Part shown: in pieces, positions 8,374-21,984 of the stretch
Layout: each line of letters begins with the position of its first letter
Position numbering within the stretch: position 1 is the first letter of the stretch
DNA from: Bdellovibrionales bacterium
GTDB taxonomy: Bacteria; Bdellovibrionota; Bdellovibrionia; Bdellovibrionales; UBA1609
NCBI GenBank assembly: GCA_027459485.1
Contig: DAIDIG010000002.1
Coordinates: 124,001 to 188,000 of the forward strand
DNA length: 64,000 nucleotides
Direction: 5' to 3'
The notes under the pieces: generated by a model
Databases searched by the model: none
What the model was told of the DNA's origin: nothing
The model's input: the letters and a program-made list of their open reading frames with translations, nothing else
Program-made: the position numbers and the translations under genes

Positions 8374-8658
8374 CTATTGGGGTCGGTTTTGATAAAAACT
8401 AAAGGTTGATGAAACCTTCGTACCCGTCACAGTTTGCTGAGTCGGAGTGACGGCGAACTGCGTGGTGACTTGCGAACCAGCCAAAGTGTTAGCACTCGGC
8501 GAAATTTTGATCGGTATTGAATTGCTCGTTTGCAGGTTCGGCATAATCGAGGGCAACGTCGTCGCCCCGTGCCCGACGAAACTTTGAATCTGCTTGTTAC
8601 ATCCGCCCGCAGCGAACGCCAGCACATACAGAGTTAAATAAGCCGCTAAAATGCGCAT
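8374..8658 (-). CDS. Small lipoprotein
   Basis: 94 residues. The N-terminal signal ends in a good lipobox, AAGGC with Cys20, followed by a short Ser/Thr-rich mature region of about 75 residues with no recognisable domain. The mature part has two repeated segments rich in V-T-x-T-x-V, suggesting an extended or beta structure. It lies opposite to the adjacent tRNA gene. Function unknown. Confidence 0.65.
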   Translation of the reverse strand: MRILAAYLTLYVLAFAAGGCNKQIQSFVGHGATTLPSIMPNLQTSNSIPIKISPSANTLAGSQVTTQFAVTPTQQTVTGTKVSSTFSFYQNRPQ

Positions 8659-8925: not shown

Positions 8926-10386
8926 TTATGGGTAACCGCACGTGCACCTCGTTAGAGGGCAGAGTCCACCTCTAGAGGCATTGCAAGCTGCCAATGTTGC
9001 GTACGGCCCGTAATACGTTGTATCAATTGGGTAGTGGTGTGGGTTCGGGCATGGGATTCTGCCTTCAAATCCCCAGGTGCCGGTACAGGTACATGAGCCA
9101 CTACTGTAATTCCACGACCCACCTGTACACAAAAACTTAGCGCCGCCACTAAAATTAGCGTTTGTATTGGCAATATTTGGTGTCGACGTTCCATTTGTTG
9201 AGACCCCAACCGCTGTCGATCCCGTGCATCCGCCGCCCCAAGCCCACGATGCGTTAGCTGGGCAGTTTACAGTTGATGAGCAAGTTGCGCCCGCATTCGG
9301 CGACGGCGCCCACGACCCAGTACTCTGGCATAGAAAAGTTGCAGCTCCTGTAGGCGAACCTGAAACAAGTAAGGGCGAATTTGTTCCAGCATCAGTCGGC
9401 GGGGCAACGGCAGTACAGCTTGGTGACGATCCCCAAGTTAGAGTTGCCGAATTACATTGTACGCTGCTGCAAGTTGACGTCGAGGGGTTATACGTCAAGC
9501 TGCCACTTGAACATGAAAATTTACCGGCGCCCGTGGTGGGACCCGTCGTATCTATAACTGTACCAGATGAACCATTCGGAATTATTGTGGTCGAATCTGC
9601 ATTGCAAGTGTCGCTACCTACTGTCCACGCCATGCCTGCGGGTACTGTGCAACTGCCTGGAGCGCACGTGCAAGTTGTCCACGATGCATTCGGTATGCAG
9701 CCTATCGCCTGACACATATTGCAACTTGTACCCGTCCAATAACCGCCAACAATCAAGCAGTTGGTTTGCGCATCGTTGCTCCAGGCGCCGAGACAAGTTG
9801 AAAGCGGGCTGGATGGTGATAGCGCCCCTACAGTTGTAAAGTAAACTTGCATTGTCCGGTCAAACACGGCGTTGCCTGAGATATTCTGATTCTCACCGCT
9901 GGTCGAAGTCCCCAAACTTTGTCCTATTATTTCGACTTCCGCAGAATAACTATTCTTAGTGGGGTCGACAGGGTTCACGTTTTTAAAATACACGTGTTGG
10001 ATTTGCGTTCTGCCATCGTAATTTGCTCCCGCGTAAATACCCGCGCCATTGGCTGCACAGTTCGTCGGCACAGCCGCAGGGTTCGGCGGATAAGTGCAAG
10101 TCGAGGGAGTGAGAGACACTTCTTTTGGTGCCGCCCCTATTTGCGCAGACGTACTTATTAGAGCCTTCGTGCAAAGAGTCGGGTTCGACAAAATGCCTTG
10201 GGCGTCTTTTAGCAGCGCTGCTTGCTCAACCATCCAGTCAGCAGTGGTGCCAGATTTTAAGGACGTCCGTAGCGCCACAGAAAGACCTAACATGACAACT
10301 GAAAGCACAGCCGCCGAAACCATCAACTCTATCAAAGAGAATCCGGCACGATTTAAAATGTGCAGATTCCTATAGCCGCATTCCAT
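8926..10386 (-). CDS. Prepilin-like protein with repeated Cys-rich C-terminal modules
   Basis: About 486 residues. Just after the start comes a type IV prepilin/pseudopilin cleavage and methylation motif, RAG-FSLIELMVSAAVLS, with Glu at +5, leading into the hydrophobic N-terminal helix. The middle part resembles a minor pilin. The C-terminal half is rich in Cys and contains about three modules of some 60 residues, each with C...W....C...G....G...F-C...G.W/L...C, followed by a last segment ending CTCGYP. I chose ATG 10386, preceded by GGAG and overlapping the upstream gene by 34 bases; the longer frame from 10500 would bury the prepilin leader. The modules may form disulfide-linked binding domains at a pilus tip; that is inference. 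Confidence 0.8.
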   Translation of the reverse strand: MECGYRNLHILNRAGFSLIELMVSAAVLSVVMLGLSVALRTSLKSGTTADWMVEQAALLKDAQGILSNPTLCTKALISTSAQIGAAPKEVSLTPSTCTYPPNPAAVPTNCAANGAGIYAGANYDGRTQIQHVYFKNVNPVDPTKNSYSAEVEIIGQSLGTSTSGENQNISGNAVFDRTMQVYFTTVGALSPSSPLSTCLGAWSNDAQTNCLIVGGYWTGTSCNMCQAIGCIPNASWTTCTCAPGSCTVPAGMAWTVGSDTCNADSTTIIPNGSSGTVIDTTGPTTGAGKFSCSSGSLTYNPSTSTCSSVQCNSATLTWGSSPSCTAVAPPTDAGTNSPLLVSGSPTGAATFLCQSTGSWAPSPNAGATCSSTVNCPANASWAWGGGCTGSTAVGVSTNGTSTPNIANTNANFSGGAKFLCTGGSWNYSSGSCTCTGTWGFEGRIPCPNPHHYPIDTTYYGPYATLAACNASRGGLCPLTRCTCGYP

Positions 10387-11066
10387 ACTCCCCCCATATC
10401 TCCACAAACACCAGCCGCACAACTTCCGGGTGGCGGGCTCGATACCCAAGTAAATCCCATCGAGGTGCAGGCTCCTTTGGCTATCGATGCCAGAACGCAA
10501 TTTTTAACGGTGGTCCCAGCGCCCGGCTTGTATATAACTGTTCCTGTCCACGTACGCGGTATTACAATATTACTTGCGGGGTCAAAAAATGAATAATTCA
10601 CTGACAAATCCGCTTGATAATAGCCCGGACCAACTGGATACGACGGAACCGGGTGAACATTTACAGCCGACATTGGCGAAGCAATCGTGATATGCGGCAG
10701 TAACGGCTGATCTGATGTGCTTAACGAAACAGGTGGTGAACCAGGAACGGTGACAGTAAAGGTCGGGGCCGAAATATTTAGCATTTTATCACATAGTTGG
10801 TCGTTTGATAAAATTGTGTTGAGTTGATTTTCAAACATTTGCGCTTCGGTGAAAGTAAGCGCAGTCGCTGAGTTAGTTTGCAAAGAATTACCATATTCAG
10901 CAATTGCAGTTGCGACTATCGCCGCAATGAGGCCGACAAGAAAAATAAATGGCAACGCGCCTTGGCCTGGCGACCCATTTACCGCAAACGATCCCACACC
11001 TACGTGCGTGGTCGCGCGATGTCTCATATTGAGCCAAAGTACTGCAAGAAAACGTACGTATTCCAT
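10353..11066 (-). CDS. Pilin-like (PilX/GspK-type) membrane-anchored protein
   Basis: 237 residues in the longest frame; ATG 11027 is an equally possible start. After a basic leader, GQG-ALPFIFLVGLIAAIVATAIAEY looks like a pseudopilin hydrophobic helix of the PilX/GspK kind, without the usual Glu at +5. The body is a beta-rich domain, and the C-terminus holds short Cys motifs (CTSMGFTW...C, CGDMGGVWNAAIGIC) that match the C-x-x-x-GG-x-W pattern in the next gene. The two genes overlap and clearly form one unit. It is probably a minor pilin partner of the downstream prepilin. Confidence 0.72.
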   Translation of the reverse strand: MEYVRFLAVLWLNMRHRATTHVGVGSFAVNGSPGQGALPFIFLVGLIAAIVATAIAEYGNSLQTNSATALTFTEAQMFENQLNTILSNDQLCDKMLNISAPTFTVTVPGSPPVSLSTSDQPLLPHITIASPMSAVNVHPVPSYPVGPGYYQADLSVNYSFFDPASNIVIPRTWTGTVIYKPGAGTTVKNCVLASIAKGACTSMGFTWVSSPPPGSCAAGVCGDMGGVWNAAIGICTF

Positions 11067-11172: not shown

Positions 11173-12927
11173 TTATCTCATTTTAAGTACGACAACGGAG
11201 ACGTCGTCGGGGATGGAACCATCTTTGCGAAAATCGTCGAATGCCCGTAAGACAACTTGAGTCGCTTGCGACGCGGACGTGCTGACGCTCAGCTGAGCGC
11301 CAACTGATTTCGCGAATCGACGGTCGCTCAATGTTTGGCCGCTTTTGTTTTCGACGGCGAAAAGCCCGTCGGTGTAAATTAACAAAAATTCGTTTTTCGA
11401 AAGATTGAAGGATTTTTCTTTGATGTAGCCACTCAGCCCATCTCCGAGGCGCCCGCACGCCGGGATTTCGAGAGGAGCATAGTCAAAGCTCGATCCATTA
11501 AAAGAAAATCGGATCGGCAATTCGTGAGACGAATTCACAACAAAGCCCTCGCCCGTGCGAGTGTCGATTTTCATCAAAAGACCCGTCATCAGTACTTGGC
11601 GCCCCGAACAACTGGAAATCGCGTGATCCCAGGCGACCATCATTTCAATGAGCGTCAACGATTCTGTTTCAAGTCTTGAAAACACTGAACGCGCGGCCGC
11701 CGTGATCAAAGCCGCCGGTGTGCCATGCCCTGTCGCATCGGCAACCGCTACATAAAGAGCGTCGCCTTTCACGAAATAGTACCACCAGTCGCCACCGCAC
11801 TCGCTCGACGTGATCACTGTGCCGCTGATCTCGATTTGGTTGACCAGGCTAGTCGGTTTGATCGGCAGAAGTCGCTCTTGCACAAGTTTGGCGGTTTTGA
11901 GTTCTTCTTCCATCCGCGCCTTTTCGCGGGTTTCACTCAACAGTCGCTGAATCTCGCGCGACATTCTTACGAACGCTTGCTTTAAAATTCCGACTTCATC
12001 GTGCGAATCGATCGACTCCTCGACATCGAAATGCCCTTGGCCGATTTGATCGGCGGCGCTTGTCAAATGGCCCAATCGCCACGTCAGACTGCGCGATAAG
12101 ACGATTGAAATCGCGACCAGACCGAAAAACGAGAACGCCAAAAAGACAAGAGACCGGTTGAAGAGAGTACCGAGAGCGCCGAACGCTTCTTTTTCGGGAG
12201 TGAGTTCAAAAACCTGCATGTCAGCGAGCCCGAGCGGAGCGGCGGACTCGAGGTAAACGGTCCCGGCGTCTTTGTAAATAGATGTTCTATCGAGTTTGAG
12301 ATCACGAATGCGCCGAGCGACATGTTCGAAAGTAGAAACGGGCACCCCTCGATAGTCGGCTTTGTAAAAAAGTTGGCCGTCGCGAGTGAACGCCACCGTA
12401 TGCGTCGGGCTTAATTCGGGTAGCAGATCGCGGAGGTCAACAAGTGCGCTCACATGCAGCGTGTCTTGATTGGGTGAAGACACGCGCTGACTCACGATAA
12501 ACTGATCGTCACGAGAGGGTTGAATGACGAGCGAGCGACCCGTCGGCTTGGTGACATCCGTCATTTCACCCGGCTGCTTTTCGAGTTTAAAAACAATGCG
12601 GCCGGTTGTTTCGTCCACCAGCTCAAGCGCCTGCAAGGCCCGTTCAGATTTGAAAATGCCGACACCGATTTCGGTCGGTTTGCCGGTCGATGGGTTGTAT
12701 GTCGCCGTCACGAATTGCATGCTTTGCATGGCGTGTTCAAACTGCGAATTGAATTCCTGCTTAAGCGAAGCGACACTCGAATTTTGCGCTTCAAACACGT
12801 ATGAAAGTTTATCGGATTCAAAGACGTTCTTTGCGACCACAACGTATGCGATCACGAGGCCGAGTCCGGTCGCTACAAGGGCGAGACTTAACTTCCAACG
12901 AATAGAAAGATTGTTCAGTAAAGCCAT
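11173..12927 (-). CDS. Membrane HAMP-SpoIIE (PP2C-type) serine phosphatase
   Basis: 584 residues. TM1 at about 14-32 and TM2 at 258-278 flank a periplasmic sensor region of about 225 residues. A HAMP domain (about 280-332) and a coiled coil with the ELKTAKLVQERLLP signature at 342-355 lead into a PPM/SpoIIE phosphatase domain. Metal-binding Asp residues are seen in ECGGDWW (D380), VADATGHG (D397), YTDGLF and PDDVSV near the C-terminus. RsbU-like members dephosphorylate anti-anti-sigma factors and so switch on alternative sigma factors. No STAS or anti-sigma partner lies in the window. It overlaps the upstream FecR gene by 13 bases. Confidence 0.9.
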   Translation of the reverse strand: MALLNNLSIRWKLSLALVATGLGLVIAYVVVAKNVFESDKLSYVFEAQNSSVASLKQEFNSQFEHAMQSMQFVTATYNPSTGKPTEIGVGIFKSERALQALELVDETTGRIVFKLEKQPGEMTDVTKPTGRSLVIQPSRDDQFIVSQRVSSPNQDTLHVSALVDLRDLLPELSPTHTVAFTRDGQLFYKADYRGVPVSTFEHVARRIRDLKLDRTSIYKDAGTVYLESAAPLGLADMQVFELTPEKEAFGALGTLFNRSLVFLAFSFFGLVAISIVLSRSLTWRLGHLTSAADQIGQGHFDVEESIDSHDEVGILKQAFVRMSREIQRLLSETREKARMEEELKTAKLVQERLLPIKPTSLVNQIEISGTVITSSECGGDWWYYFVKGDALYVAVADATGHGTPAALITAAARSVFSRLETESLTLIEMMVAWDHAISSCSGRQVLMTGLLMKIDTRTGEGFVVNSSHELPIRFSFNGSSFDYAPLEIPACGRLGDGLSGYIKEKSFNLSKNEFLLIYTDGLFAVENKSGQTLSDRRFAKSVGAQLSVSTSASQATQVVLRAFDDFRKDGSIPDDVSVVVLKMR

Positions 12928-15230
12928 CTGAGCACCGTGTACGCTTCGCTTGCGCCCTCTCGATAGGGGAGTTGTGTCGGTGCCTCATAAGTTGACCCCG
13001 CATTCATTAACTGAACGCGATAACCGAGCCCGAACGACCAATTCTTCTTGTAATAATAATTCCCGTAAATTGAACCCTCGTAAAGATTCGTCGCATCCGG
13101 GTTTTCGCCGACCAGAAAATTACCCCCCGCCGAGCAGCGCTCAAATACCGGGACCTCAACCGACGCGCCGAGTTTGGCGAGCGTAAATCCGGGCGAATAG
13201 TAGCCGTTGTACGAGTTTCGATAGATCTCCAGCCCCGAAATGAGCGCAAATTGAAGCGGTTCAAAAATATTGAGGAGATGAACGGTGGGGCGCCAGCGAC
13301 GTTCGTAGCGGATTTCTAAATCCAGCGGTGAAAACCCGTCGCCTGTCGGCACGCTCACATCGGCGACTTTTGAGTAAACGTTGCCTTCGACGCCGTTGGC
13401 TCCAAACCAATTCAGCCAGTGAACGCCGGCAACCGCTGCAGTGGGTATTTGCCCGCTCACAGTCGCAAGATCGCGCGAGTACATCGAAACTTCGCCAAAA
13501 TCGAATTCAACGTGGGAGCGGTAAATTTGCTGATTCCAATTCTCCTGAGTCGGAGGATTGTAAGTCATGATGACGGACTCTGATTGAGCCGGTTCACGCG
13601 GTAAAACGGCCGGCGGCAGCGTTTTTACGATCGGCCGCGGCGAAACGAGCAGACGGACATTTGCGAACCTCGATGAGTGTCGGTAGAAACGATCGACGGA
13701 TGCGATTTGCAGATCGTAAATGCCCGCCATTTGGGGCGCGAGCCGCAAAGCCGGTTCAGCCACAGTCAAATCGGTCGACGTGCCACTGACCACATTGACA
13801 ATGTGAACCGAATATTTGCTCGCGCGCTCAGACGCAGGCCATGCTAAAATCCTATAATCCCCCACCGTCATATGGATTTCATTTGAAGATAGGACGGGTG
13901 CATCGGGGAGTTGTGGCCGCTCCGCGAGGACCGAAACCGAATTCGAGAGGTCGGAGATTTGATTGGCGGCATTGACACTTCGAGCGCGGAAATAATAGCG
14001 GTCTGGGTCGGAAAGTGTCACCCGTAATTCCGATGCACCGGAGGCGTCGGCAACAAGCCAGACTGCGCGCGTGTTGGCCTGCGCAAAATTCGCGTCGCGA
14101 CTCATTTCGACGATGTAAGATGGCTTCGCGCTGGGCCCAGTCGGGGCTTGGACCCGCACCGTTGTAACGGCGGTGTTGCCGAGCAAATAAACATGCTGTT
14201 CCGCCACGGTGACGCGCGGAACCTGCCGTTTAAGAAACGCCGTCAGTACCCGAAACGATTGCGGCGCTGACCAGTGCTCGTGATCAATCGACAGATGCAC
14301 GAAGTTTTCACCCAGATGCGCCGTTTGAAAATGGGCGTGCAGAGATCGTGAGTCCGCCTCGAAGGCGTCTTTCACTAAGTTGAAACTCGAATCGTCTGAG
14401 AGTTCGCCGTACACATGCTGGGGCGAGCCGACGAGAAACCAGCTCACGTTCGTCGGCAAATTCACCCACGCGCGCGGCTCGGCTCGCAGTCGAATGGCCG
14501 AACCGGCCGGCAATTGTGCGGCGGTCCCATTCTCGGTAGACGAATCGGCTGGCGCGTAGTAATCGCCGACTTGCCAGACGTGGACGTACGGAGCGGTCGA
14601 AAGTTCGGGAATGGCATCGGCATTTTCGTTCTCGGGCGCCGCTTTTGCAGCGACATTTTCGAAATTCAGCTTCTTGAACCCATGCTTGTCACCGATCAGC
14701 ACTTTGCCCTTTATCGTGCGAATGATCTGGCGGCCGTGCTTCACAAAAATTTGAACTTGCGCATTGTCGGCCTCAAGCTCGCGAAGCTGACCATTGATCG
14801 CGACCGTCATAGTGCCCTTGACGTGCAGACTGAAATTGCCGACGGCAAAATCCGGAACTTCAAGGTTGTTCATCGAGCGAAATGTCACCATCGAATTTTG
14901 GCCGAGTTGAACTTCGCTGTTGTTTTTCAATTTTACGACCACCTGAGAATTGGCCGCCGTGAAAACGCTGTCGCCGATATGTACCGATTCATTCGGTTTG
15001 GCCTTTGTCCACGCCAAACTGCCAAACGACTTGTGGCGTGCGTCTCGACTGTATGAACTAATCAGTCCGATTCGCGGCGTTGTCGATGAGTTATCGTTCG
15101 AACCGAATAAGCGAAAGAAGAGCGCATCCGATTTGAGTATCGCGCCGGTCAGCAGAAGGCCGATCAGGCAAAGCAACAGGACCAACCGATCGGCTTTTTT
15201 AAAAAATGGTTCACGTGCAGATACACTCAT
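12915..15230 (-). CDS. FecR-domain protein with fibronectin-like middle and beta-barrel-like C-terminus
   Basis: 771 residues. An N-terminal membrane anchor (about 17-34) is followed by a FecR domain at about 65-185 (GDSVFTAANSQVVVKLKNNS, then LGQNSMVTF and FSLHVKGT). Fibronectin-III-like segments follow (YIVEMSRDANF, YYFRARSVNAANQISDLS). The last 180 residues show alternating aromatic strands such as YGNYYYKKNWSFGLGYRVQL and end in LRWLY, like an outer-membrane barrel. FecR-type domains transmit envelope signals. The gene heads an operon with the SpoIIE phosphatase and is divergent from the fibre gene, with 113 bases between starts. A complete barrel is not certain. Confidence 0.82.
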   Translation of the reverse strand: MSVSAREPFFKKADRLVLLLCLIGLLLTGAILKSDALFFRLFGSNDNSSTTPRIGLISSYSRDARHKSFGSLAWTKAKPNESVHIGDSVFTAANSQVVVKLKNNSEVQLGQNSMVTFRSMNNLEVPDFAVGNFSLHVKGTMTVAINGQLRELEADNAQVQIFVKHGRQIIRTIKGKVLIGDKHGFKKLNFENVAAKAAPENENADAIPELSTAPYVHVWQVGDYYAPADSSTENGTAAQLPAGSAIRLRAEPRAWVNLPTNVSWFLVGSPQHVYGELSDDSSFNLVKDAFEADSRSLHAHFQTAHLGENFVHLSIDHEHWSAPQSFRVLTAFLKRQVPRVTVAEQHVYLLGNTAVTTVRVQAPTGPSAKPSYIVEMSRDANFAQANTRAVWLVADASGASELRVTLSDPDRYYFRARSVNAANQISDLSNSVSVLAERPQLPDAPVLSSNEIHMTVGDYRILAWPASERASKYSVHIVNVVSGTSTDLTVAEPALRLAPQMAGIYDLQIASVDRFYRHSSRFANVRLLVSPRPIVKTLPPAVLPREPAQSESVIMTYNPPTQENWNQQIYRSHVEFDFGEVSMYSRDLATVSGQIPTAAVAGVHWLNWFGANGVEGNVYSKVADVSVPTGDGFSPLDLEIRYERRWRPTVHLLNIFEPLQFALISGLEIYRNSYNGYYSPGFTLAKLGASVEVPVFERCSAGGNFLVGENPDATNLYEGSIYGNYYYKKNWSFGLGYRVQLMNAGSTYEAPTQLPYREGASEAYTVLRWLY

Positions 15231-15246
15231 CTCACTGCTTCATCGG

Positions 15247-15343
15247 ATCAAAATGAGATTTTTATTACGAATTTTCGACGCGTGTCTGAATTCAGGACGC
15301 GGCGAACGTCAAGTTTTTCAGTTTAGTTACCGATACATAAAGT
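15247..15343 (+). promoter_or_regulatory. Candidate FliA-like promoter of the fibre gene
   Basis: Within the divergent spacer, TCAAGTTT at 15309-15316 and ACCGATAC at 15329-15336 resemble the sigma-28 consensus (TAAAGTTT - 11 - GCCGATAA) with a 12-base gap. The -10-like box ends seven bases before the ATG at 15344, and no Shine-Dalgarno is visible, so a transcript from here would be leaderless or nearly so. The 14-base AGTTTTTCAGTTTA motif at 15312-15325 overlaps the putative -35. Confidence 0.3.
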
Positions 15344-18300
15344 ATGAGCCTACGATCCCGTCGCCTTCTTGGCTTTTTGACCTCTTCTGTACTCGTGCTT
15401 TCTGTAATCGGCACTCGGTCCGTATATGGCACAACAAGCGACACTCCTCAGTCTTTCACTCTCGACGGCCAACTTTTACAAGCTGGCACGCAAAATCCTT
15501 TGCTCGATTCGGCCGCAAAAATCACCGTCGACGTTTTAGATCCGTCGAGAACTTGCATCTTGTATGAAGAGCAGCAAACGGTGAATACGTCTACGACCAA
15601 CGGATACTACAATATTCAAGTCGGTACGCTCAGTACGGTGGACCCGAAGCGCACGGCGAGCGATCCGCACAACACGATGGCACAAGTTTATCAAAACGTG
15701 ACTTCGATTGCGGGCACGAGCGCTCCCGGTCAGACGTGCGCTGGGGGAGTGTACGTCCCCGCGAGCGGAGATGTGCGCTATTTTCGAATCACCGTTACGC
15801 CCTCAGCCACTGGTATTGCCGATACACTTTCGCCCGACACAGTACTCAGTGCTGTGCCGACCGCGATTGCCGCTCAGACATTGGACGGTCTCGACCAGTC
15901 GTCGTTTCTGCAAGTGAACACGTCAGGCGGCGCGAATCTCACGCAAGCCAATCTCAATTTTCTTTTTACCGGCACCGCCTACAGCAATTTGCAAAACATC
16001 GAGAGCGGCAACTATTTGCAGAGTTCGTCTTCCGGTGCGGCGGACTTGCCCTCGTATACAAACGCGAGCCCGCCAGCGGCACCATCGGCCGGTAGCGTTT
16101 GGTACAACTCGACGAGCGGAGCCATCCAATATTATGACGGCACCGGCACAAAAACATTGTCGTCCGGCAGCGGTGTCACGTCGGTTTCTGTCAGCAGTCG
16201 TTTGACCGCCAACGGTACGGCCGCCGGCACGATTACTTCCACCGGTACGATCGACCTCAACACGAGTGGAGTCACTGCCGGAACTTATCCGAAAGTGACG
16301 GTCGACTCCTATGGGCGCGTCACAGCCGGTACGACTCTTGCCAGCACCGACATTCCGACGCTGACGACGGCGGGTCAGGTCTCTGGTAACACCATTACAT
16401 CCGGTACAATTGGCGGCTCAACAGTACTCAATACGAGCGGCAACATCACAACCTCAGGTAACATTTCGGCGACCAATGTGTCGGCAAATGCCGCAAACTT
16501 TCGCTCGATCACTCTCACCAATGGTTCGTCACAGACAGAAACGATTCAACCGTCGGCGGCGATTACCGGCACTCCGACGTTTACTTGGCCCGGCACAACA
16601 GGCACGGCCAATCAAGTTCTCACCACCGACGGCTCGGGTAAATTGTCATGGACTACCGTCGGCACCGGTAGCGGCACAGTCACGAGTGTTGGGCTTTCGA
16701 TGCCGTCTATATTTACTGTCAGCGGTTCACCAGTTACGACGAGTGGTACGCTAAGCGCGACACTTGCAAGCCAAACGGCGAATACGGTTCTCGCTGCCCC
16801 TAACGGTACGGCCGGTGCGCCAACTTTTCGCGGACTCGTCGCAGCCGATCTCCCGACAAGCGGAGTCACAGCCGGCACGTACAAGTCTGTCACGGTTGAT
16901 ACATACGGTCGAGTCACGGCTGGCGCCAACCCCACAACTTTGAGTGGATACGGCATCACCGATGGAATGCAAAACTTGGGTGGTTCACCCGGCGTTGAGA
17001 CGGGCCTTGATGCTTCGAAGCCCGCGACACCTGGCGCAGGTACTATCTACATGGCAACGGATACCAAAAAAGTTTATCAATATAATTCGGGAGCGTGGAC
17101 GATGATGGCATCGGCCGCGGGCTCTGGCGGAACAGTCACAAGCATCACCGCCGGCACTGGCCTCACGGGCGGCACGATCACTGGCAGCGGCACCGTTGCT
17201 CTTGCCAACCCGAGTGCCACAACAATCGGCGGTGTCGAGTCGATCGCTCCTGTGTCGCACGAATGGATCAATTCAATTTCAACTGCCGGCGTGCCTTCGC
17301 TGTCGCAACCATCATTTAGTGACCTCACTGGCACCGTGACTGCAACGCAAATGCCGGCACTTACGGGAGATGTGACATCAACCGCCGGTTCAACCGCGAC
17401 AACCGTTGTAGGCATTCAAGGCGTGAGCGTGAATTCGACGGCGCCGACCACTTCGGGGCAAGTACTTCGTTACGATACAACGACATCGAAGTACGTGCCG
17501 AACTTCATCGGTATCGCCGATATCCGTTCAACAGTTGCCGGTAACGCGAAGTTCTTCCCGACAACTTGCACGGCTGGGCAGACGCTCACATACTCGTCGC
17601 CGACCGACACCTATGTCTGCACGAACATCACAGTTGCCGGCAGCAATTTTGGCTCGCAATCTCAAGCGACGTTTTTAGCCGCTCCGACAGGTGCCGCCGG
17701 TAACCCGACGTTTCGCACGATCGCTTCGACCGATCTCCCTACGAGCGGCGTGGCTGCAGGCACATACAAATCGGTCACAGTTGATACATACGGGCGAGTC
17801 ACAGCCGGCGCAAACCCAACGACACTCGCTGGGTATGGCATTACCGATAGCGTGCAAAACGCCGGCGGCACTCCGGCCATTCAAACCGGTGCCGATGCGA
17901 GTAAACCGGCTACACCGGGTGCCGGCACGATTTACATGGCAACTGATACAAACAAAATCTATCAATACAACTCGGGTGCATGGGCGACGATGGGCGGCGG
18001 CGGTTCCGGCACCGTCACGAGTGTCGGCATGTCACTGCCGAGTATGTTCACAGTGAGCGGCTCGCCTGTTACAACGAGCGGCACACTCAGCGCGACACTC
18101 GCAAGTCAAACGGCGAACACGGTTTTGGCTGCACCAAATGGTTCAGCCGGCGCGCCGACATTTCGTACGCTCGCGACAGCGGATATGCCATCGAGTGTGG
18201 TGCTGAATGGCGGTAACTCCGCAAGTGCCGCTATGAATATTGGCTCGACGACAGCCTACAATGTCAATCTCATCGCGAACAACGCAACCGTTCTCACGGC

Positions 18301-18871
18301 CGCAAGCGGCGGCAACGTGGGCATCGGATCAGGTTCTCCAGTGGACCCACTCTCAATCAGCACGACTCCCACTGCATCGGCGACCCATGCCCTCGTCAAC
18401 TTAAGTAACACGGCTCTTTCGGGCGCTTCCGCGTCGGGCACGTATATCGGCGCCAACCCTGCCTCTGCGGGCGCGGACTTCATCAACTACCAGGTCGGCA
18501 ACGCAAGTAAATACAAAGTGGATAGCGGCGGTAATGTGACGGCAACTTCGTCACGTTTGAATGGCCAGGTTTCGGCCCAGCAATATGTGGTGGCAACAGG
18601 CTCAACGGTCGACTTCAACAACGGTAACGTGCAAGTGCTGCAAAGCGTGGGCGGCTCCACGATCACTCTCAACAATATGCAAACTGGTGGCGCGTACACG
18701 GTCATCGTCTCGGACCCCACTTCGCGTACCTATACCTTTAGCGGGTGCACGAACAAATTTCAGCCGGCCAACGGCGCCACGACCGCGAGTAGCTGGACCG
18801 TTTACACCATTTTATTCGTTAACGTTTCGAGCACCAACTATTGTTTGATATCGTGGATTACGGGGTTCTAG
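15344..18871 (+). CDS. Large exported tail-fibre-like adhesin (MAT-fibre candidate)
   Basis: 1175 residues. A signal peptide (MSLRSRRLLGFLTSSVLVLS, cleavage near 30) is followed by a beta domain at about 35-170, then a long repetitive shaft and a small Cys-containing C-terminal domain ending SWITGF. The shaft uses phage-fibre-style modules: TSGVTAGTYKSVTVDTYGRV (three variants), GYGITD repeats, SVWYNSTSGAIQYYDGTG and GTIYMATDT...VYQYNSGAW units, and SVGLSMPSIFTVSGSPVTT blocks, two of them almost identical. Bdellovibrio bacteriovorus has a set of mosaic adhesive trimer fibres with this build, chimeric between phage-fibre shafts and variable tips, used in prey recognition. Membership is inferred from the pattern. 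No tail, capsid or lysis genes are nearby, so it is not a prophage remnant. Confidence 0.85.
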   Translation: MSLRSRRLLGFLTSSVLVLSVIGTRSVYGTTSDTPQSFTLDGQLLQAGTQNPLLDSAAKITVDVLDPSRTCILYEEQQTVNTSTTNGYYNIQVGTLSTVDPKRTASDPHNTMAQVYQNVTSIAGTSAPGQTCAGGVYVPASGDVRYFRITVTPSATGIADTLSPDTVLSAVPTAIAAQTLDGLDQSSFLQVNTSGGANLTQANLNFLFTGTAYSNLQNIESGNYLQSSSSGAADLPSYTNASPPAAPSAGSVWYNSTSGAIQYYDGTGTKTLSSGSGVTSVSVSSRLTANGTAAGTITSTGTIDLNTSGVTAGTYPKVTVDSYGRVTAGTTLASTDIPTLTTAGQVSGNTITSGTIGGSTVLNTSGNITTSGNISATNVSANAANFRSITLTNGSSQTETIQPSAAITGTPTFTWPGTTGTANQVLTTDGSGKLSWTTVGTGSGTVTSVGLSMPSIFTVSGSPVTTSGTLSATLASQTANTVLAAPNGTAGAPTFRGLVAADLPTSGVTAGTYKSVTVDTYGRVTAGANPTTLSGYGITDGMQNLGGSPGVETGLDASKPATPGAGTIYMATDTKKVYQYNSGAWTMMASAAGSGGTVTSITAGTGLTGGTITGSGTVALANPSATTIGGVESIAPVSHEWINSISTAGVPSLSQPSFSDLTGTVTATQMPALTGDVTSTAGSTATTVVGIQGVSVNSTAPTTSGQVLRYDTTTSKYVPNFIGIADIRSTVAGNAKFFPTTCTAGQTLTYSSPTDTYVCTNITVAGSNFGSQSQATFLAAPTGAAGNPTFRTIASTDLPTSGVAAGTYKSVTVDTYGRVTAGANPTTLAGYGITDSVQNAGGTPAIQTGADASKPATPGAGTIYMATDTNKIYQYNSGAWATMGGGGSGTVTSVGMSLPSMFTVSGSPVTTSGTLSATLASQTANTVLAAPNGSAGAPTFRTLATADMPSSVVLNGGNSASAAMNIGSTTAYNVNLIANNATVLTAASGGNVGIGSGSPVDPLSISTTPTASATHALVNLSNTALSGASASGTYIGANPASAGADFINYQVGNASKYKVDSGGNVTATSSRLNGQVSAQQYVVATGSTVDFNNGNVQVLQSVGGSTITLNNMQTGGAYTVIVSDPTSRTYTFSGCTNKFQPANGATTASSWTVYTILFVNVSSTNYCLISWITGF
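16678..18165 (+). repeat. Duplicated and permuted fibre-shaft modules
   Basis: Two module types each occur twice inside the fibre gene. The SVGLSMPSIFTVSGSP...LAAPNG block is at about 16678-16833 and again at 18010-18165. The TSGVTAGTYKSV...GYGITD...YQYNSGAW block is at about 16855-17105 and again at 17740-17990. Their order is reversed between the copies (block 1 then 2; block 2 then 1), which points to shuffling or recombination of shaft segments. Confidence 0.8.
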
Positions 18872-18918: not shown

Positions 18919-21900
18919 ATGAAACGAGTCATTCCATTAATTGCTTTGACGACTCTTTTCGTTTTCTCATGCGATAAGCAATCCTACGCCTACTACAATC
19001 TCGGCGCTTTTTGGCGCGCCTCAAGCAGCAGTAGTGGCAGCATTTCGAAAGAGCCATGGACGGTTCAAGATGGGACTGCGTCCGGTCAAGCGATAGCGAA
19101 TGGCATCGCCGTCGATTCAGCCGGTAATTCTTATGTATGCGGTTCCACATCCGTTGCCGGTATCGATGGTAACTCACTTAAAGGCTCCACCGACTTATTC
19201 ATCTCGAAGTATAACACATCAGGGGTTAGACAGTGGACGGTAGAGGATGGCTCATCTGGCGGACTTGCCACCGCTAAGGCGTTCGGAGTTGCCGTTGACT
19301 CATCCGGTAACGTTTACGTAACGGGAGAAACCACTAATGGACTCGATGGCAATTCTGTCAAAGGTTCCACCGACTTCTTCATCACAAAGTACAACACGTT
19401 GGGCGTCCGCCAATGGACTATGCAGGATGGAACATCTGGCGGTTTCGCGTACGGCAATGGTATTGCCGTCGATTCATCCGGAAACACATTTGTCACAGGC
19501 TACACTTACGGTGCCGGGTTAGACGGTAATACGCTAAAAGGTACTCAGGACCTATTCATAACGGAATACAATTCATCAGGCACGCGACAATGGACTGTTG
19601 AAGACGGGACCTCAACCGCAAATGCGACGGGTAGTGGAATTGCCATCGACTCTTCGGACAACGTCCATGTAACCGGTTATATTACGGGTGCCGGGTTAGA
19701 TGGTAATACGCTAAAAGGTACTCAGGACCTATTCATAACGGAATACAATTCATCAGGCACGCGACAATGGACTGTTGAAGATGGCACGTCAGGAGGTTCT
19801 GCTTACGGCAACGGCATTGCCCTAGACTCGTCGGGCGACGCATATGTTGCTGGATATACATCTGGTGCCGGCCTCGACGGCAATACTCGTGTTGGAACTA
19901 AGGACCTTATAATTACTAAATATAATTCGTCTGGGACCCGCCAATGGACGGTCGAAGATGGGACATCAGCCGGTTCTGCAGTAGGCAGCGGAATTGCCAT
20001 TGATATTTCAGGCAACCCGTATGCTACTGGATATACATCTGGTGCCGGGATCGATGGAAACACTCTAAAAGGTACTTACGACCTCTTTGCCACCGAATAC
20101 AATTCTTCGGGTACGCGACAGTGGACAGACGAGGACGGCCCAAGCGGCGGCGAGGCTCTTTCCAACGGAATCGCTATTGATTCATCCGGCGATGCCTATC
20201 TAACTGGGTATGTAACTAACTCTGGAAGTGGAGTGGGCATAGACGGTAACATAATGACGGGATTTGAAGACATTTTCATTATCAAATTAAGCAATGCGAC
20301 CAAGCTACTCACCCTTTCATTTAGCGGCGTCACCCTAACTTCGTTTACAGCAACGGCCAGCTTTGCGGGCGACCTCAATTCGAGCAATAGCGCCACCATT
20401 TATTATTGTGACGCAACCCTAACGCCGAGCTGCACCCCGACAAGTGGTACATCGGCTGCAATGACTCGCTCAGCGGGACAGTTCAATTATTCAGCCGCCA
20501 GTCTGAATTCTGGCGATACCTACAATGTCGAAGTCGTCGCAACCGATGCCGACGGAACCTACGCTTCACCGTTGACCAGTAGTATCGTTTTAGCCACCAC
20601 TTGCCAATTTTTCTTAACCTCAGGATCGACTTGGACCGTACCCAGCGACTGGAGCAACTCTAACAATAAAATCGAAGTCATCGGTGCCGGTGGATCTGGT
20701 CCGAACGCCACCGCTGGCGCCGGTGGCGGTGGCGGTGGCTACGCAAAAGCGACCAATGTCACTTTAACTGCAGGCGCCTCTATCGCCTACTCGGTTGGGG
20801 TTGGCGCAACTGGGGCTGCTGGGGGTAACACTTATTTTTGTAATTCGACTAGCAACTGCGCAAGCATCAGCGGTTCTGCCGTCGTCGCGGGTGCTACAGG
20901 CGGCGGCATCGGCGCCTCAGGTTCACCGGGCTCAAGTGGCTCCGGCAGTGTTGGAGCTGTTCTTTATTCTGGAGGCGCAGGGGGAACATCAATCGGTGGT
21001 GGCGCGGCTGGGCCGAGCGGTAGTGGCTCATCCACGGGTACAGCAGACAGTGGTACGGTATCGGCAGGTGCTGGTGGGGCAGAATGGGGCAGCGTTGGAT
21101 CTGGTGGCGGCGGTGCAGGTGCTGTGTACAACCTACTGACGCACACTTATACTTCGGCCAAAACCGGAGCGAACTTCGGCGGCGGCGGGGGGGGCGGCTA
21201 TAGTGCCTCATATCCGGGTGCAAGCGGCGCGAACGGCATAATCGCAGTCACCTACGGCGGCGTCAACTGTGGTAGAGTCAGTTATGCGAAACAAATAATA
21301 CTTACATCGGGCACGACTTGGACAGTGCCAAGCGATTGGAACAGCACTAACAACTCGATCGAAGTGATAGGGGCTGGCGGCGGTTCGACAGGATCGGACG
21401 GCGGTGGGGGCGGCGGTTACAGTCGTGCGGTTAACGTAGCTCTCACGGCAAACAGCACAGTCAGTTACTCTGTTGGCGCCGCAAGCACGGGATCCGGTGG
21501 CAATACATATATCTGTAATTCAACCAGTAATTGTGCCAGCATTTCTGGTTCTGCGGTTGTTGCGGGTGCAAATGGCGGTGGCGGCGGATCGGGAGCCTAT
21601 CCGTCATCTACGGCTGGCGCGGGCGGGTCGACAACTGGCGCGGTTGGCTCATTCACGTACTCCGGAGGTAACGGGGGCAATGCTACAAAGGGCATAATTA
21701 CCGCATTTCCCGGTGGCGGCGGTGGAGCAGCCGGGCCGTTTGGTGCTGGGAGCAATAGCCCTGGGCTGAGCGGCGGGTACGCCGATGATTATCACGTATC
21801 CGGAAATGCCAGTGGTACCGAGTGGTCTGCATCGGTCGGCTGCGGTGGCGGTGGAAATGGGTCGATTGGCGGCGGCGGGGTGGGCACGAATGGCTTGAAC

Positions 21901-21984
21901 TATGGCGGTGGCGGCAGCGGCGTGGGTGGTACGAATACAAGCAATGGCGGCCCCGGGCTAATCGTTATCAGTTATACTCCGTAG
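18919..21984 (+). CDS. Lipoprotein with a seven-blade SBBP propeller and two glycine-rich domains
   Basis: 1021 residues, start preceded by GAGGGT. The signal ends VFSC with Cys18, a probable lipobox. Residues about 47-460 are seven units of about 59 residues, each with QWTVEDGTSGG...GIAIDSSGN.YVTGYT...LDGNTLKGT.DLFI.KYNSSG, the SBBP beta-propeller repeat. A fibronectin-like domain (about 470-560) with a CDATLTPSC loop follows. Two similar glycine-rich domains (about 560-780 and 790-1021) each start with LTSG.TWTVPSDW...IEVIGAGG and share CNSTSNCASISGSAVVAGA. Such Gly-rich domains occur in phage receptor-binding tips and can form polyglycine-II sandwiches. It follows the fibre gene by 47 bases and is probably a surface binding protein, perhaps co-expressed with it. 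Confidence 0.87.
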   Translation: MKRVIPLIALTTLFVFSCDKQSYAYYNLGAFWRASSSSSGSISKEPWTVQDGTASGQAIANGIAVDSAGNSYVCGSTSVAGIDGNSLKGSTDLFISKYNTSGVRQWTVEDGSSGGLATAKAFGVAVDSSGNVYVTGETTNGLDGNSVKGSTDFFITKYNTLGVRQWTMQDGTSGGFAYGNGIAVDSSGNTFVTGYTYGAGLDGNTLKGTQDLFITEYNSSGTRQWTVEDGTSTANATGSGIAIDSSDNVHVTGYITGAGLDGNTLKGTQDLFITEYNSSGTRQWTVEDGTSGGSAYGNGIALDSSGDAYVAGYTSGAGLDGNTRVGTKDLIITKYNSSGTRQWTVEDGTSAGSAVGSGIAIDISGNPYATGYTSGAGIDGNTLKGTYDLFATEYNSSGTRQWTDEDGPSGGEALSNGIAIDSSGDAYLTGYVTNSGSGVGIDGNIMTGFEDIFIIKLSNATKLLTLSFSGVTLTSFTATASFAGDLNSSNSATIYYCDATLTPSCTPTSGTSAAMTRSAGQFNYSAASLNSGDTYNVEVVATDADGTYASPLTSSIVLATTCQFFLTSGSTWTVPSDWSNSNNKIEVIGAGGSGPNATAGAGGGGGGYAKATNVTLTAGASIAYSVGVGATGAAGGNTYFCNSTSNCASISGSAVVAGATGGGIGASGSPGSSGSGSVGAVLYSGGAGGTSIGGGAAGPSGSGSSTGTADSGTVSAGAGGAEWGSVGSGGGGAGAVYNLLTHTYTSAKTGANFGGGGGGGYSASYPGASGANGIIAVTYGGVNCGRVSYAKQIILTSGTTWTVPSDWNSTNNSIEVIGAGGGSTGSDGGGGGGYSRAVNVALTANSTVSYSVGAASTGSGGNTYICNSTSNCASISGSAVVAGANGGGGGSGAYPSSTAGAGGSTTGAVGSFTYSGGNGGNATKGIITAFPGGGGGAAGPFGAGSNSPGLSGGYADDYHVSGNASGTEWSASVGCGGGGNGSIGGGGVGTNGLNYGGGGSGVGGTNTSNGGPGLIVISYTP
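19057..20300 (+). repeat. Seven 59-codon SBBP repeats, two nearly identical in DNA
   Basis: Seven in-frame units with a 177-base period encode the propeller blades. Bases 19510-19607 and 19687-19784 differ at only two of 98 positions, while the other units differ widely. This shows a recent duplication or gene conversion of one blade-sized segment. Confidence 0.88.

Follow-up and report, generated by a model that had tools for sequence, protein, structure and literature searches.

A FecR–SpoIIE gene pair beside a prey-binding fibre gene in a Bdellovibrionales bacterium as a candidate contact-signalling module

Genes and predicted proteins at the locus

The window, that is, the whole stretch of DNA analysed here, comprises 64,000 nt of a Bdellovibrionales bacterium (UBA1609; GCA_027459485.1, DAIDIG010000002.1:124,001-188,000, read 5′ to 3′). 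The source organism is uncultured and related to the predatory Bdellovibrio, and the genome that holds the window (G000) amounts to 2.75 Mb in 34 contigs. Below, FECB denotes the FecR gene, SPP the HAMP-SpoIIE phosphatase gene and MAT a mosaic adhesive trimer; MAT<|FECB> stands for a MAT divergent from FECB, and L- and G-numbers designate loci and genomes, respectively. The MAT fibre gene (15344..18871, +; 1175 aa) and FECB (12915..15230, −; 771 aa) lie on opposite strands, their starts separated by a 113-bp intergenic region (15231..15343) in which a promoter scan found no sigma-70 consensus. FECB is followed on the minus strand by SPP (11173..12927; 584 aa), with which it overlaps by 13 bp. 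An earlier sequence-only reading of the window had given correct coordinates for all three genes, and the 113-base divergence that it reported was confirmed.

A small lipoprotein gene (8374..8658, −; 94 aa) lies 2.5 kb downstream of SPP. In the window, a profile built from three relatives picks out this ORF alone (E 1.7e-10; next match 0.012), and homologues directly follow FECB at L123, L125, L128, L205 and L207. Between SPP and the lipoprotein gene sits an overlapping pair of pilin-like genes, of which 8926-10365(−) has an N_methyl/GFSLIEL match over the Pfam cut-off and 10353-11066(−) a weak Flp-like match; possible interplay between adhesion and type IV pili is mentioned in the MAT paper (PMC10769870). 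On the other side, MAT is followed by an SBBP beta-propeller gene (18919-21984, +), a homologue of which (L070 6165-9278) is separated by 92 bp from a different FecR protein of the window genome (449 aa).

The phosphatase and the fibre belong to known families. The fibre gene product matches Bdello_MAT_N (NF053851, 85.4 bits; cut-off 60) through its conserved N-domain (about 15434-15919, +), and by this match the fibre described earlier as phage-like is a MAT prey-binding fibre. In PHROGs it has a weak tail-fibre match. Several MAT paralogues are present in the window genome. SPP is predicted to contain a transmembrane segment, a periplasmic sensor, a second transmembrane segment, a HAMP domain (11950..12102, −; PF00672, 33.8 bits) and a SpoIIE (PPM-type) phosphatase domain (11182..11769, −; PF07228, 88 bits), the latter two each over the Pfam cut-off, as the HAMP-SpoIIE assignment had implied. 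The catalytic motifs GGDWW, DATGHG, TDG and DD are kept and are invariant in 22 sequences, and judged by its sequence SPP is a member of the SpoIIE/PPM membrane phosphatases.

The FecR domain of FECB scores below the Pfam threshold (PF04773, 18.5 bits; cut-off 24), yet the AlphaFold2 fold and the family profiles agree with FecR. The model predicts a helix at residues 12-33, which corresponds to a hydrophobic N-terminal segment at about 16-34 (15129..15185, −), a FecR-type periplasmic beta domain at 53-187 (14670..15074, −; pLDDT mostly over 85) and FN3 domains at 255-530 (13641..14468, −), for which Foldseek matches FNIII proteins (E 5e-9). The full-length model did not resolve the barrel, so the C-terminal part was modelled separately. 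Together with four relatives, the C-terminal 212 residues folded into ten antiparallel strands (pLDDT 72, pTM 0.68, from five sequences), a predicted outer-membrane beta barrel at residues about 573-771 (12918..13514, −) whose best PDB matches by Foldseek (OpcA, TM 0.60; OmpT; porins) are nearly all outer-membrane barrels. The FecR, fibronectin-like and barrel-like parts that had been read from the sequence are thereby each backed by predicted structure. A strict AxA cleavage site was found in only 1 of the 37 FECB-family N-termini with a clear hydrophobic segment, and the segment is for that reason read as an uncleaved inner-membrane anchor, with a cytoplasmic tail of about 15 residues. With an anchor at the N-terminus and a barrel at the C-terminus, FECB is predicted to be a single chain spanning from the inner to the outer membrane.

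In some lineages the barrel is fused to FecR, and in others, comprising many species, it is encoded by a separate gene directly after SPP, a pattern which argues that the FecR protein and the barrel work together. The window-subfamily barrel and the commoner barrel have marginal similarity (hhalign E 0.0015); their placement in one family was rejected on this account, and the window domain is treated as barrel-like by fold.

Recurrence of the fibre-linked gene order

To survey the pair, 47 family genomes were searched with FECB and SPP and a genome collection was searched with SPP, yielding 84 distinct SPP sequences. FECB neighbours SPP at 70 of these 84 loci across Bdellovibrionota, usually divergently. 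At 69 loci FECB is found within two genes of SPP (63 divergent, 4 tandem, 2 convergent); the 70th is L128, where FECB had been missed by a simple ORF caller and was recovered by a six-frame search.

Outside the window, MAT<|FECB> was found three times, at L125 and L128 in G083 and at L205 in G134, both genomes belonging to other families. Two of these run on into SPP, namely the diverged MAT-FECB-SPP triads of L125 and L128, which share a contig, and the third into the lipoprotein only. Short divergent gaps between MAT and FECB occur in the relatives too, and families f1, f3 and f8 share the order at low identity of their sequences. In the family genomes MAT lies within 6 kb of FECB in 7 cases against 1.3 expected (P 4e-4, a rough value since the genomes are related). 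The window SPP belongs to a clade of seven rows (SH-aLRT 100), and a MAT is near SPP at 4 of the 7 loci of this subfamily (window, L123, L125 and L128), compared with 1 of the 77 remaining rows (P 9e-5); the contigs of the subfamily's other three loci are each shorter than 5.1 kb. The gene order remarked on in the sequence-only reading thus recurs elsewhere in Bdellovibrionota, with MAT<|FECB> followed by SPP or lipoprotein twice in G083 and once in G134, and fibre and operon meet again at L133, the single MAT-linked locus among the 77, with MAT located within the FECB/SPP cassette.

A class-wide profile search for the FECB subfamily, blind to MAT, returned 8 loci in 6 of 144 genomes. At 7 of the FECB loci the contig extends upstream of the gene, and at 4 of these 7 MAT was immediately divergent. 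One of the four is L205, which shows MAT<|FECB>, the lipoprotein gene and a convergent ABC transporter gene, with no SPP directly after. In a tree of MAT N-domains, all four MATs of this arrangement (window, L125, L128 and L205) fall into one 7-row clade of 51 (SH-aLRT 89), a grouping with a chance probability of about 1.4e-4; the remaining members are two window-genome paralogues and one row from a short contig. We conclude that the MAT-FECB-SPP gene order is more than chance.

The FecR-SpoIIE pair might nevertheless be a general envelope-stress sensor whose adjoining fibre gene is meaningless. In most genomes no MAT is found near the canonical FECB-SPP pair, and the upstream gene of the closest FECB orthologue (G041, 60%) is M41-like, not a MAT, while the G127 orthologue adjoins neither MAT nor SPP. 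Set against the order common to three families at low identity, the congruence of the MAT clade and the conserved lipoprotein, a chance neighbourhood appears highly improbable. The M41-like gene of G041 (L007 1-690) has a homologue at L066 5773-9219 that is divergent from another window-genome MAT, a hint of rearrangements among these loci.

Alternatively, FECB could be a device for MAT export or anchoring only, its adjacency to SPP being inherited from an ancestral FecR-SpoIIE pair and contact signalling having been lost. Consistent with this, barrel-bearing FECBs of another subfamily adjoin MAT at L057, L058 and L102 without SPP, L205 likewise is without SPP, and FN3-barrel proteins without FecR are found one gene from MAT at L064, L088 and L089. 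However, SPP retains all its catalytic motifs and is adjacent to FECB in the window, L123, L125 and L128 despite the rearrangement of the canonical cassette; moreover, the majority of MAT genes lack a neighbouring FECB, so that FECB is not a general exporter. On balance we regard this explanation as unlikely.

Two further observations concern the surroundings of MAT genes. On contig C3 of the window genome, a MAT of the triad clade (L063 8532-13632) is near a protein of the standalone-barrel family and a homologue of the window lipoprotein, the neighbourhood being split by an AAA-type ATPase gene. Many MATs also have a gene of about 185-260 aa directly upstream or divergent (L108, L114, L115, L116, L118, L121 and others).

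Candidate partner genes of the phosphatase

Searches with the Pfam STAS and HATPase_c_2 models alone imply an SPP without partners; this was rejected, because the partners fall below Pfam thresholds. Clustering of SPP neighbours identified five genes, c0-c4, of which c0 and c2 scarcely register in Pfam. At loci elsewhere the FECB-SPP pair heads an operon in the order c2, c0, c1, c3, c4; homologues of this canonical cassette occur in Bdellovibrio sp. qaytius too (L151). Here, c2 (about 289 aa) has GHKL-like N-box and G-box motifs, c0 (about 157 aa) is STAS-like with an invariant candidate phosphoserine in the motif INSxGI, c1 is a CheA-like kinase with PAS, Hpt and HATPase_c domains, c3 is a CheY-like receiver and c4 combines a receiver (REC) with DUF4388 and DnaJ. 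Against Pfam STAS, c0 scores 11.7-12.4 bits in two relatives, and the window-genome copy had no match among the matches listed. In the 47 genomes, SPP co-occurs with c0 in 26 of 27 (Fisher 6e-11) and with c2 in 27 of 27 (3e-12), tests which treat the genomes as independent though they are related. At several loci, including ones of Bacteriovoracaceae, c2 is fused to the C-terminus of SPP (L198, L195, L184, L201, L176, L197 and L191).

The sequence-only reading had pointed to the release of sigma factors by SpoIIE phosphatases in known systems, and to STAS and anti-sigma genes as co-occurring genes to look for. STAS-like and kinase-like partners do exist, but by Pfam a stand-alone RsbW-type kinase (PF13581/HATPase_c_2) was found only in genomes without SPP, and the PF13581 matches listed for the window genome all belong to longer open frames (about 400 aa or more). 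Furthermore, no sigma gene was recognised in the c0-c4/FECB-SPP cassette, and the STAS-like gene shares its operon instead with genes for response regulators and a CheA-like kinase. Output through a sigma factor was accordingly set aside as unsupported.

In the window, SPP is not adjacent to c0. The window genome carries an intact c2-c0-c1-c3-c4 operon without FECB or SPP (G000:C6:169824-175493), located 73 bp after a ribD-like gene. In the congeneric genome G042, FECB and SPP are found exactly between the ribD-like gene and this operon, and the window lineage has therefore probably lost the pair from its C6 cassette. Candidate inputs to the C6 operon in trans are the fibre-linked pair and a second SPP of the window genome, at C11. 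On contig C1, L068 16284-17942 encodes a cNMP-binding protein whose terminal part is a c2-type domain and which gives a weak receiver match in the stretch before that domain; the c0/c2 switch may also take a cyclic-nucleotide input.

The main rival to contact signalling reverses its direction, such that FECB-SPP senses an envelope cue and controls fibre expression, with the divergent MAT as the output. A regulator beside a divergent target gene is a common arrangement, and the 113-bp spacing in the window and the short divergent gaps in relatives conform to it; the several window-genome MAT paralogues could then be swapped by regulation. SPP, however, does not itself bind DNA as a regulator, and the module has no recognised transcription factor. 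The c0 operon contains CheA-like, CheY-like and REC-DUF4388-DnaJ genes rather than a sigma/anti-sigma pair, and at L057 MAT is downstream of FECB in tandem rather than divergent. We hold this reversed scheme to be somewhat unlikely but, like the pure anchor, a serious alternative.

From prey contact to phosphorelay: a proposal and its relation to known systems

The best explanation in our judgement, to which we give about an even chance, is a fibre-linked signalling module composed of the MAT fibre, FECB, the small lipoprotein and SPP, with contact-to-phosphorelay signalling as the best-supported reading. According to this proposal, the FECB barrel would act at the cell surface by holding the invariant base (N-domain) of MAT or by being in contact with it, an interaction that we infer from the arrangement described above. 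Gripping of prey would alter the barrel/FN3/FecR rod, and with it the state of the periplasmic SPP sensor. HAMP would relay this change to the SpoIIE phosphatase, and SPP would dephosphorylate c0, in the window genome presumably in trans, with c2 opposing it. As the putative output, c0 would in turn affect the CheA-like kinase and the response regulators encoded with it, changing the behaviour of the predator. Of the contact-sensing circuit first suggested for these genes, the recurrent order and the partners are supported and sigma release is not, while contact as the input is inferred.

In favour of the module are the adjacency of the pair, the recurrence of MAT<|FECB>, the MAT clade, the barrel fusion, the c0/c2 co-occurrence and the orphan operon. 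Counted against it are the MATs without FECB, the loci without SPP (L057, L058, L102 and L205), the neighbours in G041 and G127, the separation of SPP from c0, the second SPP, the five-sequence barrel model and the weak similarity of this barrel to the commoner one. Possible, and put forward tentatively, is a broader view in which such proteins are dedicated prey-contact receptors: single chains from the inner to the outer membrane, each with its own MAT, that feed a sigma-free partner switch running from SpoIIE through STAS/GHKL to a CheA/CheY-type phosphorelay.

We know of no account of the means by which predatory bacteria recognise that they are gripping prey. The same gene set occurs in distant relatives, and it may therefore be how the predator senses held prey. 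If so, the locus supplies candidates for the fibre's surface partner (the FECB barrel), the transducer (SPP) and the intracellular path (c0/c2 and the phosphorelay). The analysis also reveals a Bdellovibrionota-wide cassette of a FecR protein, a SpoIIE phosphatase, STAS-like, GHKL-like and CheA-like proteins and two response regulators, as well as a protein, FECB, whose single chain is predicted to reach through both membranes. In the literature searched, which did not cover subscription papers, no published description of the FECB-SPP-fibre module or of the cassette was found, nor any work joining FecR, SpoIIE and Bdellovibrio; one survey of signalling proteins has both FecR and SpoIIE.

Among known switches, RsbU/SpoIIE-STAS-RsbW-sigma systems share with the cassette a SpoIIE-type phosphatase and possibly, given the low Pfam scores of c0, a STAS-like protein with a conserved serine, but the cassette is without a sigma gene and SPP genomes are without a stand-alone RsbW-type kinase by Pfam. 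In the SiaABCD system of Pseudomonas aeruginosa, a membrane HAMP-SpoIIE phosphatase opposes a kinase acting on a STAS-like protein, and the output is not a sigma factor (PMC8457831). SPP shares this HAMP-SpoIIE layout, although it reaches 48 bits with the SiaA model, far below the cut-off of 700. SiaABCD includes SiaB, SiaC and the diguanylate cyclase SiaD, whereas c0 and c2 have no match to the SiaC and SiaB Pfam families and the cassette has no diguanylate cyclase; the module here adds a FecR protein predicted to span the envelope.

Like FecR of the FecA-FecR-FecI system, FECB is predicted to have a FecR-type periplasmic domain and one inner-membrane helix and would connect the outer membrane to the cytoplasm. 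There, however, the receptor is a separate TonB-dependent barrel and a sigma factor is the neighbour, whereas FECB has a predicted barrel in its own chain and adjoins a phosphatase and a fibre; it has neither the sigma neighbour nor the sigma-binding cytoplasmic tail of FecR/FecI/FecA systems. The window fibre resembles the MAT fibres of Bdellovibrio bacteriovorus in its signal peptide, N-domain and repeats (Caulton et al, 2024; PMC10769870). In that paper the invariant MAT N-domain is taken presumably to bind some element of the surface, and the main text makes no mention of FecR, a barrel or an operon (PMC10769870). Whereas the surface partner of the N-domain is left unnamed there (PMC10769870), at the locus described here a candidate partner and a phosphatase adjoin the fibre gene.
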